Source: a virus
Strand: one strand, 5' to 3'
DNA length: 41,614 nucleotides
IMG/VR virus record: IMGVR_UViG_3300020060_000017
Location: 1-41,614 of that record
In this document: positions 8,237-31,935 of the stretch, one piece after another
Layout of the letters: the number at the start of each line of letters is the position of its first letter
How positions within the stretch are numbered: the first letter of the stretch is position 1
Notes under the pieces: model-generated
Databases searched by the model: none
Seen by the model: only the letters and a program-made list of their open reading frames with translations
What the model was told of the DNA's origin: nothing
Translations under genes and position numbers: made by a program

Positions 8237-9547
8237 TTAACCGCCGTTGATGCGTGCAATCCGGAAGCGATCCCGAACGTTCACGTTGAGCGCCACATCG
8301 AAGCGAACGCCATGCTCGCCTGTGTGGAAATCGCTGTGCTGCCACATGCGAACGGTCAGCGGGATTTTCGACAGCTTCCGGCGCATGGACGTGTCCGAGG
8401 CCGGCAAAATCAGCGGGACCGTGTTGACGACGATCGACTGTTTCTGGATCACGACGCGGGGCGAAAGGTTCGTGGCCGGCGCCCCGATGAACGTCAACAC
8501 CGCGTCGTTGGCCGGGATGGCCGAAACGGTGGCGTGCGCGATATTGATGTTGATATTGTCACCCGCGCCCGAACCCGGCACGATGATCGCCGGGAAAATC
8601 ACGAGCGTGACCGCGCCGCCGACTGCCGTTGCGTCCGCCACGACGGTAAACTGTTGCAGCCGGGCCGGCGAAACGAGCGCCTGCTTACGGTTGTCATAGG
8701 CGAAAACACCGGGGATCGTGAAAACCTCGCCTGCCTTATACGTCTTGACCCCGGCGTCGGCGAGCAGAAGGTTCTGCGTCAGGCGCCGGCCGTTGACGGT
8801 GCCGGCCTTGGCAACGTCGGCATAGTTGACGTTCTGCGCGCCGCCGTCAACGGTCGCTTCCGCCGTTGCCGTCCGTGTGCCCGTGAGCAGATTCGGAAGC
8901 TGGTTCGTGAACATCGTGCGGATGCCGTTAAGCTCGCCCGAAAAGCCCTTCCGGAAAGTCGCGGTCGAAAACTGGTCCGGCCCTGGCAGCTTCACAACCT
9001 GGTCGCCAAGCTGTTGCAGATCGAAATAGTTCAGGATGTAGGAAAGCTCGTCGTCACCAACGCCGTTTTCCTTGAGGCGGGTATAGCCGGCGACGGCGTC
9101 CACCCAATTGCCCACGGCGTTGTTCGGCGTCCCCGTCCAGTCGGCCGACGCAAGGACGGCTTTCTGCATAACATAGGCGTCGATTTTCTCGGCCATGCTG
9201 GTCGCGGCGCCGAGCAGCGCCTTGCTCTGGCGAGCTTCGCCAATCGACTTGATCTTGACGAAATCGCCCCAACCCATGTTGGCGTTGAAAGTGCCGGTGA
9301 TTTCGAAAAGCTCGGAGCCGAAAACCGTGCCATCGGTGCCGGCGGAAAGGTCTTTCACACCGTTTTCGGTGCGCGTCACGTTGTAGCGCGGCGTGACCTG
9401 TTCGAGCACCTGAAGCCCGTTGCGGTCGTCCATTTCGCCGTCCATCTCGTTCCACGAGACGGCTTCAGCGGTCACGAGGTTGTTTTGCAACACCATCGCG
9501 AAAGAATTCAGCACCAATTTCTGCTGTTCGGTTGTTACGGCACCCAT
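8237..9547 (-). CDS. Major capsid (coat) protein, P22-type
   Basis: 436 residues (P22 coat is 430). It begins MGAVTTEQQKLVLNSFAMVL and has the family's N-arm (LEQVTPRYNVTRTENGVKDL), a long helix (EARQSKALLGAATSMAEKID, then AYVMQKAVLA), the segment FRKGFSGELNGIRTMFTNQL, a beta domain rich in Val/Ala, and a C-terminus FDVALNVNVRDRFRIARING resembling the closing strand of HK97-fold coats. It lies directly after scaffold and portal in transcription order, the canonical place. ATG at 9547 has AGAAGGG upstream, inside a hairpin. Confidence 0.85.
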   Translation of the reverse strand: MGAVTTEQQKLVLNSFAMVLQNNLVTAEAVSWNEMDGEMDDRNGLQVLEQVTPRYNVTRTENGVKDLSAGTDGTVFGSELFEITGTFNANMGWGDFVKIKSIGEARQSKALLGAATSMAEKIDAYVMQKAVLASADWTGTPNNAVGNWVDAVAGYTRLKENGVGDDELSYILNYFDLQQLGDQVVKLPGPDQFSTATFRKGFSGELNGIRTMFTNQLPNLLTGTRTATAEATVDGGAQNVNYADVAKAGTVNGRRLTQNLLLADAGVKTYKAGEVFTIPGVFAYDNRKQALVSPARLQQFTVVADATAVGGAVTLVIFPAIIVPGSGAGDNININIAHATVSAIPANDAVLTFIGAPATNLSPRVVIQKQSIVVNTVPLILPASDTSMRRKLSKIPLTVRMWQHSDFHTGEHGVRFDVALNVNVRDRFRIARINGG

Positions 9548-9548
9548 G

Positions 9549-9590
9549 GGGATTTCCCTTCTCTGCTAAATTGCCGATCGGGGAAATCCC
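9549..9590 (-). promoter_or_regulatory. Hairpin in the coat-gene leader
   Basis: A 10-bp inverted repeat (GGGATTTCCC at 9549-9558 and GGGAAATCCC at 9581-9590) spans the ribosome site of the coat gene; on the minus strand the second arm ends two bases before its ATG. Folding would bury the AAGGG ribosome-binding bases, so it may tune coat translation. Seen in sequence; effect inferred. Confidence 0.5.
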
Positions 9591-17660: not shown

Positions 17661-17706
17661 ACAAAAAAGAGCCCCCGGCAGTCGCGCTACCGAGGGCTCT
17701 TTCCTT
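17661..17706 (-). terminator. Intrinsic terminator
   Basis: AGAGCCC (17668-17674) pairs with GGGCTCT (17694-17700), continued by CGG/CCG inside. On the minus strand the stem is followed by TTTTTTGTC, a good U-tract; the plus side has only a weak T-run. It would stop leftward transcription after the gene ending at 17751, dividing the accessory genes from the regulator and late genes. Confidence 0.75.
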
Positions 17707-17750
17707 CCTTGGGAGGGAAGCCGGGTCAATATCGTTTTACCGATATCGGG

Positions 17751-17993
17751 TCAATCCACCTTATCGACGAAATATTCATCGTCGAGCAGTCCGGCAAGCG
17801 TTGCCTCGGACACTTCCACCTCGCGGCCGGAATGCGACTGCGTGAGCACGAGCCCGCCGCCGCGCACGCCGAGGGAAATGCGATCCCCGATGCGGAATTG
17901 CCCCTGCATGTCGAGCCCCGAATGGCTAGCGGCTGGATCGGGGTTGTCGAGGCCCCGCGTGCCCCGTGCGGTCTTATGGGATTTGTCGGTCAT
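17751..17993 (-). CDS. Small basic-acidic protein, unknown function
   Basis: 80 residues, ATG at 17993. Contains MQGQFRIGDRISLGVRGGGL and VLTQSHSGREVEVSEATLAG, LLDDEYFVDKVD. Beta-rich middle and acidic end. Last gene before the terminator. No family recognised. Confidence 0.55.
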   Translation of the reverse strand: MTDKSHKTARGTRGLDNPDPAASHSGLDMQGQFRIGDRISLGVRGGGLVLTQSHSGREVEVSEATLAGLLDDEYFVDKVD

Positions 17994-20022: not shown

Positions 20023-20129
20023 GGTGAAAATCCTTTCGCATCATCGTGGTTGGGATGCTCTGGATAGTCCGGTGACGGAGGGGAATATATAATCATGGGG
20101 AATTAGGGGAGGGGGCAAAATTGCCACCG

Positions 20130-20159
20130 ATATGGTTCTAAGAGGTATGGCTGTGTCAA
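20130..20159 (-). promoter_or_regulatory. Candidate leftward promoter
   Basis: On the minus strand TTGACA (20159-20154) matches the -35 consensus, followed after 18 bases by CCATAT (20135-20130), a weak -10. Transcription would begin about 100 bases before the gene starting at 20022. Only the -35 box is strong. Confidence 0.35.
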
Positions 20160-20408
20160 AAATGGGTGGTGCTCTCCCCGCCGGTTGGAATGGTTGTGAC
20201 GCATTAGGAACGGCGGAATTGTGCGGAGGGAGCCCCGCCGGGAGGGTGGTGCCGTTGAGGGATTAGAATAGATTGGGATGTTCCGTAAGGGAAGGGGTTG
20301 GGGAAATTTGGGGAATATAGCGCGGCACGACCCCGCCCGGCCTTCCGCCCGCCGAAAAGAACCTATCCCCCCTCCCCGGCGAGAAATGCCTACGGGTCCC
20401 CGGCCCAT

Positions 20409-20471
20409 TATGTGACGCTGCGTGATATGTAATGGTTAACGAGGCATAAGCATGTGCCCATGCGTCACATA
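20409..20471. repeat. Inverted pair of TATGTGACGC sites
   Basis: TATGTGACGC at 20409-20418 and its exact reverse complement GCGTCACATA at 20462-20471, 43 bases apart. Further partial copies: GTGACGCATT near 20196-20205 and TGCGTCACAT at 20639-20648. Candidate binding sites for a phage or host regulator. Confidence 0.55.
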
Positions 20472-20489
20472 TAGTTAAGGCAATGCTGC

Positions 20490-20627
20490 TTATTTTAACC
20501 AATTCGAATTTCCCCGATATCCCGAACGGGCTAGCTCCCGCCGTGCGATGACGTGATGATATGCCTGAAGCCGGGTAATCCCGAGCAATTCAACCAAATC
20601 ACGAATTTCCTTATCCATCTGCACCAT
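20490..20627 (-). CDS. 45-residue HTH-like protein, candidate autoregulator
   Basis: A short leftward gene inside the control region. ATG at 20627 with CGGAATATGG just upstream; stop TAA at 20492-20490. Sequence begins MVQMDKEIRDLVELLGITRL and continues QAYHHVIARRELARSG, then YRGNSNWLK. The run IRDLVELLGITRLQAYHHVI has the spacing of a helix-turn-helix (helix, Gly turn, recognition helix). Coding quality (regular Leu/Ile heptads, few rare residues) is better than in any other frame here. A TGCGTCACAT site lies 12 bases upstream of its start and two more just past its end, so it could bind these sites. Function inferred. Confidence 0.55.
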   Translation of the reverse strand: MVQMDKEIRDLVELLGITRLQAYHHVIARRELARSGYRGNSNWLK

Positions 20628-20638
20628 CCATATTCCGT

Positions 20639-20648
20639 TGCGTCACAT
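20639..20648. promoter_or_regulatory. TGCGTCACAT site upstream of the HTH-like gene
   Basis: Third clear copy of the GCGTCACA motif, placed 12 bases before the start codon of the 45-residue HTH-like gene, where a bound repressor would block it. Confidence 0.4.
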
Positions 20649-20898
20649 CTGTCTAGCCGGGAAACGTAAAGAAAGCGTAAACGCCGGATAATTTCGGCGC
20701 GGGTGACAAACGGGAATGCCAGCATGCACCCAGGATCGAACGAGCGGGAAATCGGAATTAGGGAAATTGGAATTGATCAGAATTTTTCCAGGTAATCTAA
20801 AGCTCGGCGAACGGGGGAGAATGAGCGGAGCGGCGGAGCGAGCGTCAGCGAGCGGGAGACGCGCAGCGTTGTCACATGCCTTACCGCGCCCGCGCATT

Positions 20899-20940
20899 AT
20901 GCGAGAGACAAGGGCGCAGTTTATATAATCTGGCCCATTA
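20899..20940 (+). promoter_or_regulatory. Early promoter-like repeat A
   Basis: TGCGAGAGACAAGGG followed 9 bases later by TATAAT (20924-20929) and then CTGGCCCATT. No TTGACA is present; instead GACAAGGG begins 17 bases upstream of the -10 box. The same arrangement recurs in repeat B about 95 bases downstream, which supports a real element. Confidence 0.45.
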
Positions 20941-20995
20941 GATGCAATCGCCGTCATTTTGTTATTGATTTGTTAATAATCAGCGCCTAGAAGGG

Positions 20996-21033
20996 TGCGA
21001 GACAAGGGGCCGGAACATATAGATCGGGCCATT
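20996..21033 (+). promoter_or_regulatory. Early promoter-like repeat B
   Basis: TGCGAGACAAGGGG, then CATATAGATC and GGGCCATT, an imperfect direct repeat of element A. The -10-like TATAGA starts 17 bases after GACAAGGG. It ends about 20 bases before the first early ATG (21053), so transcription from here would give a short leader. Confidence 0.45.
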
Positions 21034-21324: not shown

Positions 21325-21567
21325 ATGATCGCTGACACGCAATCAATCTGCCGGATAGGGCGAGCAAGGCAGAAATTGATTGAGGCCATGGACAGGCAGT
21401 TTCGCGCAGCAAATGATTTCGACTGGTTACAGGATCAAAACGCGATTGATGGCGCGTGCGCGGAGTTGCGCGGTATCGCCGGTTGCGATTTCGCCGCTGA
21501 ATACGCTATCGCTGAAAAGGCCGTAGCACATAGGCAAATGGCCTATGGAAACGACGGGGAGTATTGA
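21325..21567 (+). CDS. Small early protein, unknown function
   Basis: 80 residues; ATG at 21325 follows CAGGAG. Mostly helical (ICRIGRARQKLIEAMDRQFR, AANDFDWLQDQNAIDGACAE, FAAEYAIAEKAVAHRQMAYG). No family recognised; lies between two structured leaders. Confidence 0.6.
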   Translation: MIADTQSICRIGRARQKLIEAMDRQFRAANDFDWLQDQNAIDGACAELRGIAGCDFAAEYAIAEKAVAHRQMAYGNDGEY

Positions 21568-21579
21568 GATAATGAGTGC

Positions 21580-21668
21580 GCGGAGAAATCCGCCGCTCAA
21601 ATGAAAGGCGCCGCGTAACCGGCCGGCTCTACAGGGTCAACTCCTGTATCCCGCCTTTCATTTGAGTG
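21580..21668 (+). ncRNA. Candidate structured RNA (long closing stem with internal hairpins)
   Basis: First a GCGGA-GAAA-TCCGC hairpin with a GNRA tetraloop (21580-21593). Then a perfect 15-bp stem (21596-21610 with 21652-21666; arms begin CTCAAATGAAAGGCG), extendable to 17 bp with one wobble pair. Inside it are a weak CCG/CGG hairpin and a 6-bp TACAGG/CCTGTA hairpin with the 7-base loop GTCAACT. The last arm resembles a tRNA T-arm, but there is no anticodon arm or 7-bp acceptor, so it is not a normal tRNA. It lies between early genes, just before AGGAG of the next. A leader switch, processed small RNA or cruciform DNA site are all possible. Confidence 0.6.
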
Positions 21669-21684
21669 ATTAGGAGAATTTTTC

Positions 21685-21897
21685 ATGGCGCGCAAATCAG
21701 ACTTGCGGGAATGTGAATACATTTTCGGCGGACCTTATCGCACCTATGCGCGCGCAGATGAAAGCAGGCTAGATTCGTTCGCCGATGGCGAAATCGATCA
21801 TAGCTCAAATCCTCGCGTTGCTGCCCTGCGCGACCATAGGGGCAAGGTTACGGGATATGCGCTTGTACTAACCGACAATGGCTTGAAGGGATATTGA
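21685..21897 (+). CDS. Small early protein, unknown function
   Basis: 70 residues; ATG at 21685 with TTAGGAGAA upstream, right after the structured RNA. Sequence ARKSDLRECEYIFGGPYRTY, ARADESRLDSFADGEIDHSS, VAALRDHRGKVTGYALVLTD. Separated from the next ATG by one base, so co-translated. No family recognised. Confidence 0.58.
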   Translation: MARKSDLRECEYIFGGPYRTYARADESRLDSFADGEIDHSSNPRVAALRDHRGKVTGYALVLTDNGLKGY

Positions 21898-23682: not shown

Positions 23683-23704
23683 TCAACCCGCTTTCAATGG
23701 AGCG
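23683..23704 (+). repeat. Repeated early-gene leader, copy 1
   Basis: TCAACCCGCTTTCAATGG then AGCG, directly upstream of the ATG at 23711. CGCT/AGCG can pair and the GGAG ribosome site falls at the hairpin's 3' side. Identical at 21 of 22 positions to 24109-24130. Confidence 0.6.
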
Positions 23705-24108: not shown

Positions 24109-24130
24109 TCAACCCGCTTTTAATGGAGCG
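24109..24130 (+). repeat. Repeated early-gene leader, copy 2
   Basis: TCAACCCGCTTTTAATGG then AGCG, 21 of 22 bases as in copy 1, again ending in the GGAG ribosome site, here for the ATG at 24138. Confidence 0.6.
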
Positions 24131-24599: not shown

Positions 24600-24743
24600 A
24601 TGAGCCAGAAAATCAGAAAAGAGCGGATTACTAAGCGGGAATGGTACGATAGGGGCGGCTTTGCCAACTCCGCATTGTTCCGCTTGCAATCGCGCGGCGG
24701 CGCCTGGCGCTACTACGTCAACCTTGATCGGAGGGAGCCATGA
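24600..24743 (+). CDS. 47-residue early protein, unknown function
   Basis: Short gene from ATG at 24600 to TGA at 24741-24743, which overlaps the next ATG (ATGA). Sequence MSQKIRKERITKREWYDRGG, FANSALFRLQSRGGAWRYYV, NLDRREP. Strongly basic with aromatic residues; may bind nucleic acid. Ribosome site is weak (GGAAGC). Confidence 0.55.
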   Translation: MSQKIRKERITKREWYDRGGFANSALFRLQSRGGAWRYYVNLDRREP

Positions 24744-25219
24744 GCCGCACAACTTCCCGCGAGCTTCGCGAAATCACGGAGCGCTTGAAGGCCATGACCG
24801 GCCCGATTTGTGAATTGCGAGAAATCGCAAAACCAATCGGGAGCTATACCGAATCCAGAATGGACCGCGCGCTTTCGTGCATTATGGAGGCGCACGACTG
24901 TTTCACCTACGCACTGGGAAATTTCGAAACCTATGCGTCACCTGATGAACGGGACGCAGCGGCGAAAAAATTGTTGGCTGCCATGGAGCTCCCGATCAAG
25001 CCACCTGTCGCAGGCTATATAGTCACGCTCGAAACTGAACATTTTGTATTCGAAGCGGACGGCGTAACCGAGGAAGAGGCTAACGAGGCGATGGGCCGGC
25101 TGCTCAATATTCACCGGGATCAATATTATCTGTCCGATGAGTGGTGGACAGATTATGATTTTTCAACTCGGAAATTTGTGCCCGGTGTCGCAACCCGCAA
25201 TGGGGACATTCCGCTATGA
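24740..25219 (+). CDS. Early protein of unknown function
   Basis: 159 residues, ATG at 24740 preceded by GGAGGGAG. N-terminal half is helical (SRELREITERLKAMTGPICE, DRALSCIMEAHDCFTYALGN); second half is mixed (GYIVTLETEHFVFEADGVTE, EEANEAMGRLLNIHRDQYYL). The second part looks like a small ferredoxin-like phage domain with a strand-helix order. Overlaps the next gene by ATGA. Confidence 0.6.
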   Translation: MSRTTSRELREITERLKAMTGPICELREIAKPIGSYTESRMDRALSCIMEAHDCFTYALGNFETYASPDERDAAAKKLLAAMELPIKPPVAGYIVTLETEHFVFEADGVTEEEANEAMGRLLNIHRDQYYLSDEWWTDYDFSTRKFVPGVATRNGDIPL

Positions 25220-31125: not shown

Positions 31126-31830
31126 ATGGATATTCGGATTACTCACGTTATCGAGCTTTCGGGGCCGCTCATGTCCCTGCTCATGTCGTCGGTCGCGGGC
31201 GCCGCAATTTCCGCTGGCGCATCCGTCAGCCGCGCAGCCTCGGCGAAAAACGTCGAACCTGCCCCAAACGCTGCGCCGGTTGCGGATGCTCCGTCCGGTG
31301 GCGACACTGTTGGCGCTGTCTCGGGTGAGGTGGACGCGGCCGGCTGGCCCTGGGACGAGAGCCTGCACGCTTCGACCAAGGGCACGACCAAGGACGGCCT
31401 GTGGCGCATGAAGGTCGGCGTTTCCCGTCCGGCGCCGAAGCCGGGTTTTCCCAAGGAAACTGGTGGCACTGGCACGCCGGCCAATGGAACGATGCCCGCT
31501 GCTTCCGCCACTGCGTCGAGCGCGCCTGCTACTTCGACGGGTGAAGATGACGACGAATTCGCGGCGTTCCGTGCGGCGGCTGACAAGGCCAACGGCACCG
31601 ACGCGGCGGCGGCTGCGTCCATCCCGGCCCGCAAGTGGACCGACGCCGATCTTGGCGCGCTCTGCAATCAGGCAGCCGTGAAGCTCGGCGATCCGGCGCC
31701 CGTCAAGGCGCTGATCGCGGAATTCGTTCCGGACGGCATCGTGCCGCACTCGCGGAACATCCCGGCCGACGAGCGCGAGAATTTCGCGCAGGCGGTCGAG
31801 TTGAAGGCGGGGATCGAATTCGCCGGGTAA
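31126..31830 (+). CDS. Early protein with the PWD-IH-LWR motif, unknown function
   Basis: 234 residues. N-terminal hydrophobic/Ala-rich segment (SGPLMSLLMSSVAGAAISAG), then a linker rich in Ala/Pro, then DAAGWPWDESLHASTK and DGLWRMKVGVSRPAPKPGFP (residues about 70-105), closely matching the late protein at 7172-7540. A C-terminal helical part (DADLGALCNQAAVKLGDPAP, VKALIAEFVPDGIVPHSRNI, ERENFAQAVELKAGIEF) follows. In other phages, proteins with this xPWDxxIHxxxKxxxxDGxWRxKxG motif are often near recombination genes. Here it is between helicase and exonuclease. Confidence 0.62.
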   Translation: MDIRITHVIELSGPLMSLLMSSVAGAAISAGASVSRAASAKNVEPAPNAAPVADAPSGGDTVGAVSGEVDAAGWPWDESLHASTKGTTKDGLWRMKVGVSRPAPKPGFPKETGGTGTPANGTMPAASATASSAPATSTGEDDDEFAAFRAAADKANGTDAAAAASIPARKWTDADLGALCNQAAVKLGDPAPVKALIAEFVPDGIVPHSRNIPADERENFAQAVELKAGIEFAG

Positions 31831-31855
31831 AATCCCCCGCTCGGTGAATCCCGCT

Positions 31856-31901
31856 GGCAGACCGGGGCCGGAAATTGCCCCTCAATTTCCGGTAGTCTGC
31901 C
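31856..31901 (+). promoter_or_regulatory. Two-stage hairpin between early genes
   Basis: GGCAGAC (31856-31862) pairs with GTCTGCC (31895-31901). Inside, CCGGAAATTG (31868-31877) pairs with CAATTTCCGG (31883-31892) over a CCCCT loop. No U-tract follows, so it is more likely an mRNA stabiliser, processing or attenuation structure than a simple terminator. Confidence 0.6.
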
Positions 31902-31935
31902 ACTCTAGCCATGTAAGTAGCCAAAGGAAATCGCC

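Follow-up and report, generated by a model that had tools for sequence, protein, structure and literature searches.

A branched intergenic structure in the early operon of an uncultured phage, a candidate mRNA processing or insulating site

The gap between two small early genes of an uncultured phage contains an element (positions 21580 to 21668) that is very probably a real, nonrandom, and functional structure. Our tentative reading is that it acts in cis within the early polycistronic mRNA, most likely as a site of RNase III-type processing or of insulation, although this assignment, which is made by analogy, stands somewhat short of probable. By the same analogy, covarying mRNA structures found at other junctions of the phage group make an RNA-level role of the element likely.

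Genomic setting and architecture of the element

The whole stretch of DNA analyzed here (the window) is a 41.6-kb virus record from a soil-type phage. Late genes, including those for the large terminase, portal, and major head protein, occupy the left half of the window, mostly on the minus strand, and from about 21 kb onward the plus strand carries the replication genes (primase/helicase, helicase, exonuclease, and DNA polymerase). Neither of the two genes flanking the element, gene A and gene B, matched Pfam or PHROG, and tblastn against the fetched loci of related phages found no relative of either. The junction contains the following features.

21325 to 21567, plus strand: gene A, an orphan early gene of 80 amino acids, with a Shine-Dalgarno (SD)-like CAGGAG upstream
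21572 to 21604, plus strand: possible 10-codon upstream open reading frame (ORF), MSARRNPPLK*, with its stop inside the 5' arm of P1
21580 to 21593, plus strand: GAAA tetraloop hairpin of 5 bp (GCGGA-GAAA-TCCGC)
21594 to 21610, plus strand: 5' arm of the closing stem P1, from complementarity and fold
21610 to 21627, plus strand: inner hairpin P2 of 4 bp (21610 to 21613 with 21624 to 21627; pair probability about 0.65)
21630 to 21648, plus strand: inner hairpin P3 of 6 bp with a 7-nt loop (TACAGG-GTCAACT-CCTGTA)
21652 to 21668, plus strand: 3' arm of P1, from complementarity and fold
21672 to 21676, plus strand: AGGAG, the SD sequence of gene B, read in the sequence
21685 to 21897, plus strand: gene B, an orphan early gene of 70 amino acids

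The element covers 89 of the 117 intergenic bases. The GAAA hairpin comes first; P1, which encloses P2 and P3, follows, and AGGAG and the gene B start lie beyond it. The core arms of P1, CTCAAATGAAAGGCG (21596 to 21610) and CGCCTTTCATTTGAG (21652 to 21666), are complementary at 15 of 15 positions, and outward extension by G21595.U21667 and C21594-G21668 gives 17 pairs with one wobble. P1 ends 3 nt before AGGAG, which is therefore outside the stem. A sequence-only reading had described the GNRA hairpin, the perfect 15-bp closing stem (17 bp with one wobble), the 6-bp hairpin with its 7-base loop, and the nearly complete occupation of the gap, and we found every one of these items where it had been placed. 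P2 was absent from that reading; with it, the element becomes a three-way junction, and in the minimum-energy fold that includes P2 the closing stem has 16 pairs. The arms are separated by a 41-nt structured spacer, and the element occurs as a single copy in the genome.

Fold statistics

Perfect stems of at least 15 bp with a spacer of at most 60 nt are expected 0.03 times per shuffled genome, and one was observed. Among 2,131 windows of 100 nt scanned on the transcribed strands, the top-scoring one starts at 21580 (z = -5.8) and outranks a clear terminator at 17661 to 17760 in stability relative to shuffles. The core of the element gave a z-score of -6.9 (0/300 shuffles as good) and the core plus the GAAA hairpin one of -7.4, again with no shuffle as good. 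Both the stem statistics and the shuffled-fold z-scores thus uphold the earlier view that the element is structured. Because RNA of the minus strand folds about equally well (z = -6.2), the fold alone cannot separate a role as RNA from one as DNA. The GAAA hairpin was also checked for enrichment as a recurrent motif, and none was found.

The element does not have the form of an intrinsic terminator, a G+C-rich stem with a run of T directly behind it. P1 is followed by ATTAGGAG, and the element is absent from the terminator-like sites, in agreement with the earlier statement that it has no U-tract.

Searches for known classes and homologues

At the gathering cutoff of Rfam 15, no family matched the element; the best subthreshold scores (17.4 of 100 and 10.1 of 270 bits) are at chance level. 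The only other copy is in contig IMGVR_UViG_3300020061_000093, which shares 99.8% identity with the window as a whole and carries the element unchanged. In exact-pattern scans of IMG/VR, the 5' arm gave 47 matches, a chance level, while both arms together were found in L039 only, as was the P3 hairpin.

Loci of relatives (designated by L numbers) were gathered via the primase, the terminase, a 95-amino-acid neighbor, and the exonuclease. Gene B, the 95-amino-acid neighbor, and a 189-amino-acid neighbor used as baits retrieved relatives, but gene A, gene B, and the element were absent from all of them; BLAST for these three in the collected loci found none, and the element had no blastn match among phages or plasmids. 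A covariance model of the element's structure (R1) was run on the fetched loci, on about 50 complete viral records, and on 149 genomes from Bradyrhizobium, the genus of L107, and detected no homologue. Two weak R1 matches (L152 and L153) have nonpairing positions, lie within long open frames, and were judged to be chance. The start region of the early genes is mosaic among these phages. With a sole second copy that is identical and no diverged homologue among the sequences searched, the covariation test cannot be applied to the element, and its function is assigned by analogy.

Covarying structures at gene junctions of related phages

Downstream of the homologue of the window gene at 31126 to 31830 and before the exonuclease gene, relatives carry a hairpin of 7 to 8 bp with an 8-nt loop of consensus CGNKWAAW (L114, L115, L119 to L126, L130, L134, L138, L140, L141, and L145 to L149). 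Since MAFFT misaligned these 8-nt-loop hairpins, pairs were counted in register by script. In 19 copies, 16 of them distinct, each of the eight pairs occurs in two or more pair types, with changes in both arms, and 95% of cells pair, compared with at most 36% when the partner is slid by 1 to 2 bases. Copies at a second junction occur in L121 (4528), L128 (4527), L145 (4813), and L051 (21651), the L121 copy lying directly before AGGAG. The hairpin has no match in Rfam and probably serves the phage group as an mRNA operator or processing signal; its conserved loop speaks for protein recognition over mere double-strandedness at that site.

The window has its own form of this hairpin, with an extra 11-bp helix in the loop; L113 and L117 have shorter extra helices there. 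It lies in the early junction at 31831 to 31935.

31855 to 31902, plus strand: second early-operon intergenic hairpin, with 8 bp, a 4/1 internal loop, and 11 bp (z = -5.1), and no U-tract

A scan for a 7- to 8-bp stem with a CGNKWAAW loop did not list the element at 21580 to 21668. A word, GCGTAAY, common to the element's inner loops and the relatives' hairpins was dropped, since the stems do not correspond.

At the junction before the exonuclease gene, L121 (2356 to 2425), L148 (2115 to 2184), and L149 (2373 to 2444) have a three-way-junction RNA in which 9 of 21 pairs are changed on both sides, with compensatory changes in all three helices and a conserved GTGGTA hairpin loop; 0/500 shuffles reach any of five measures. 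The covariance model of this RNA (R2) found its own seed loci and one chance-level match, and the window element was not matched. The junction RNAs of relatives that were tested have no Rfam match.

Long stems are also found in the gaps of relatives. Perfect 14-bp stems close two hairpins each in L132 (2208 to 2291) and L144 (2394 to 2468), the latter structure sharing only two short loop words with the L121-type three-way junction, of which it may be a rearranged form. In L058 (35 to 127), a 17-bp stem, branched inside, is followed by 3 nt, an SD sequence, and a gene, the same plan as in the window, and L157 (9359 to 9409) has a 17-bp perfect stem. All four are unrelated to the window element in sequence, and the intergenic stems of relatives are free of U-tracts. 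In the phage group, perfect stems of at least 13 bp number 11.0 per 100 kb in noncoding, 2.2 in coding, and 0.16 in locally shuffled sequence, rough densities given that the coding mask includes many spurious frames. Most early junctions of the window are without such a long stem. Three arms of one 12- to 17-bp sequence in noncoding DNA of L053 (6487 to 6594) could form two mutually exclusive hairpins.

On the minus strand of the window, a 10-bp hairpin (9549 to 9590; arms at 9581 to 9590 and 9549 to 9558) precedes the major head protein gene (8237 to 9547) and encloses its ribosome-binding site and start. The hairpin is present in 6/6 tested relatives (L058, L059, L060, L061, L065, and L164), whose arms differ yet remain mutually complementary, and translational control of capsid synthesis is its probable role.

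Few phages (T7, T4, and lambda) have had the posttranscriptional control of their early genes worked out in detail. In this uncultured group, one gene of which has relatives in Bradyrhizobium genomes, several mRNA structures are under selection at specific junctions. The element at 21580 to 21668 alone is a single, lineage-specific case, but the covarying junction hairpins supply a tractable group of RNA motifs not represented in Rfam, for which a binding partner or nuclease can be sought, and they merit separate study.

A proposed early-mRNA processing or insulating site

The position and strand of the element and the structures at neighboring junctions favor action in early mRNA. It is the strongest fold of the genome, lies on the coding strand of the early operon 3 nt before a ribosome-binding site, and belongs to a phage group in which covarying RNA structures point to selection at other junctions. 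We rank RNase III-type processing or insulation first because of the junction stems of unrelated sequence and the T7-like hairpin at 31855. The occupation of comparable positions by such unrelated stems favors an RNase III-like nuclease, one that senses double-strandedness, over a sequence-specific binder.

We infer that the element is transcribed, folds in the cell, and is acted on by RNase III. In transcripts spanning both flanking genes, it would fold into the three-way junction with a closing stem of 16 to 17 bp. P1, perhaps lengthened to about 22 bp by stacking on P3, would be a host RNase III-type site or a stabilizing boundary, and either cleavage or protection at this point would split the message of gene A from that of gene B. 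The former may thereby gain a stable 3' end, and the latter would keep a short leader with AGGAG free.

RNase III processes between the early genes of T7, where site R1.1, between genes 1.0 and 1.1, has a 4/5 internal loop (PMC6121014). Like R1.1, the element would form a long hairpin without a U-tract between two cistrons of an early operon, ahead of the downstream gene, and its predicted fold has the structure of a T7-type signal, namely, a long double-stranded hairpin in an intercistronic gap. R1.1 consists of one hairpin that contains an asymmetric internal loop, whereas the element is predicted to be a perfect 15- to 17-bp stem closing a three-way junction. The hairpin at 31855 to 31902 is closer to R1.1 in outline, with two helices around an asymmetric internal loop. 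Against this reading, RNase III from rhizobia favors duplexes longer than those preferred by the Escherichia coli enzyme (PMC6121014), and P1 alone is only 16 to 17 bp long.

Among the roles suggested by the sequence-only reading, an RNase III-type candidate site fits best, while a DNA structure used in replication found no positive support; overall, the interpretation given in that reading is partly supported.

Alternative roles

The main rival, to which we give a modest chance, is an RNA operator in which a phage or host protein would bind the junction, the inner loops, or the GAAA hairpin and thereby control how gene B is translated or how stable the mRNA is. In this group, mRNA operators linked to a protein or to the ribosome are plausible, as covarying hairpins adjoin gene starts: the conserved 8-nt-loop hairpin of relatives, with its fully covarying stem, lies just upstream of genes and recurs at a second junction, and another covarying hairpin encloses the capsid-gene ribosome site. 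However, the element has no convincing sequence likeness to the relatives' hairpins, model R2 does not match it, and the AGGAG of gene B is outside P1. The mRNA operators of T4 gene 43 and MS2 replicase, hairpins near start codons that bind a known protein, resemble the element in lying beside a ribosome-binding site, but they include or touch the SD sequence or start, whereas the SD sequence of gene B is free.

It is also conceivable, though rather unlikely, that the element belongs to an undescribed class of junction mRNA structures serving phage-specific posttranscriptional control, perhaps read by a phage-encoded RNA-binding protein; the class would comprise the long-stem three-way junctions, the CGNKWAAW-loop hairpin, and the capsid-start hairpin.

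Unlikely, too, is a translation insulator or leader control, in which P1 would stop ribosomes that have translated gene A or the 10-codon ORF and gene B would start independently, or a ribosome stalled on the ORF (21572 to 21604) would open P1. The arrangement is suggestive: the ORF has GGGGAG upstream (21556 to 21561), its ATG at 21572 begins 4 nt past the stop of gene A, its own stop is in the 5' arm, and P1 ends 3 nt before AGGAG. Yet an ORF of 10 codons easily arises by chance, and this one may have done so; an alternative hairpin clearly hiding AGGAG did not turn up.

We consider a DNA element, be it paired inverted operators, a cruciform, or a replication site, a poor candidate. An inverted repeat is equal on both strands, the minus-strand RNA folds nearly as well as the plus-strand RNA, and inverted repeats in L053 (7098 to 7209) overlap promoter-like sequence. 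In the window, a weak promoter-like match (9/12, at 21546 to 21573) lies ahead of the inverted repeat rather than between the two arms, and such matches are at chance level (14 found versus an expected 10.6 from shuffling). The sign of the GC skew switches around 15 to 20 kb, near the change in gene direction, but not specifically at the element, and a site just before a ribosome-binding site inside an operon suits mRNA better.

A small RNA excised from the early mRNA or acting in trans, including a tRNA-like molecule, is the least probable role: the fold is compact and self-contained, but there is no Rfam match, and ARAGORN found no tRNA or tmRNA, in keeping with the earlier statement that the element is not a tRNA; it has no CCA and no anticodon arm. 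The earlier reading had likened the P3 loop, GTCAACT, to a tRNA T-loop; T55, C56, R57, A58, and Y60 of the consensus (TTCRANY) do fit, but position 54 is G, not T.

Comparison with start-associated repeats and further observations in the early region

In cluster K mycobacteriophages, extended start-associated sequences (ESAS) are 17-bp inverted repeats immediately upstream of the ribosome-binding sites of small nonstructural genes; their function is unknown, and the authors who described them saw little evidence that they form RNA hairpins (PMC3203893). ESAS occur in many copies per genome with a common consensus and, in most sites, a 4- to 13-bp spacer, and they are tied to a 13-bp start-associated sequence (SAS) (PMC3203893). 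The element resembles them as a 17-bp inverted repeat next to the ribosome-binding site of a small gene, but it differs in its single copy, 41-nt structured spacer, and perfect arms. An assignment to ESAS was rejected, as no recurrent 17-bp consensus beside a repeated 13-bp SAS is found and the element is single in the genome.

A start-associated motif that includes the SD sequence, CGCTTTCAAYGGAGYG, precedes early genes in the window at 23689 to 23704 and 24115 to 24130 and is also present in L051, L053, L056, L060, L061, and L106, often with a TTGAC promoter-like box upstream. In concept it resembles the SAS of cluster K mycobacteriophages. Derivation of the 3' arm of P1 from this motif was discarded, the likeness being weak (score 10) and equaled at several other places.

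Between the divergent gene blocks, window positions 20100 to 20960 are noncoding; patches match relatives as translated DNA, with no evident gene. Imperfect direct repeats at 20901 to 20939 and 20997 to 21033 flank a possible early promoter (TTGATT at 20965 and TAGAAG at 20988) and are possible operators. A comparable pair of repeats, different in sequence, surrounds TTGACA-N17-TAGAAG in L056. Finally, a strong coding-region hairpin with a second GAAA tetraloop (24800 to 24842; z = -4.7) lies within the gene at 24740 to 25219.
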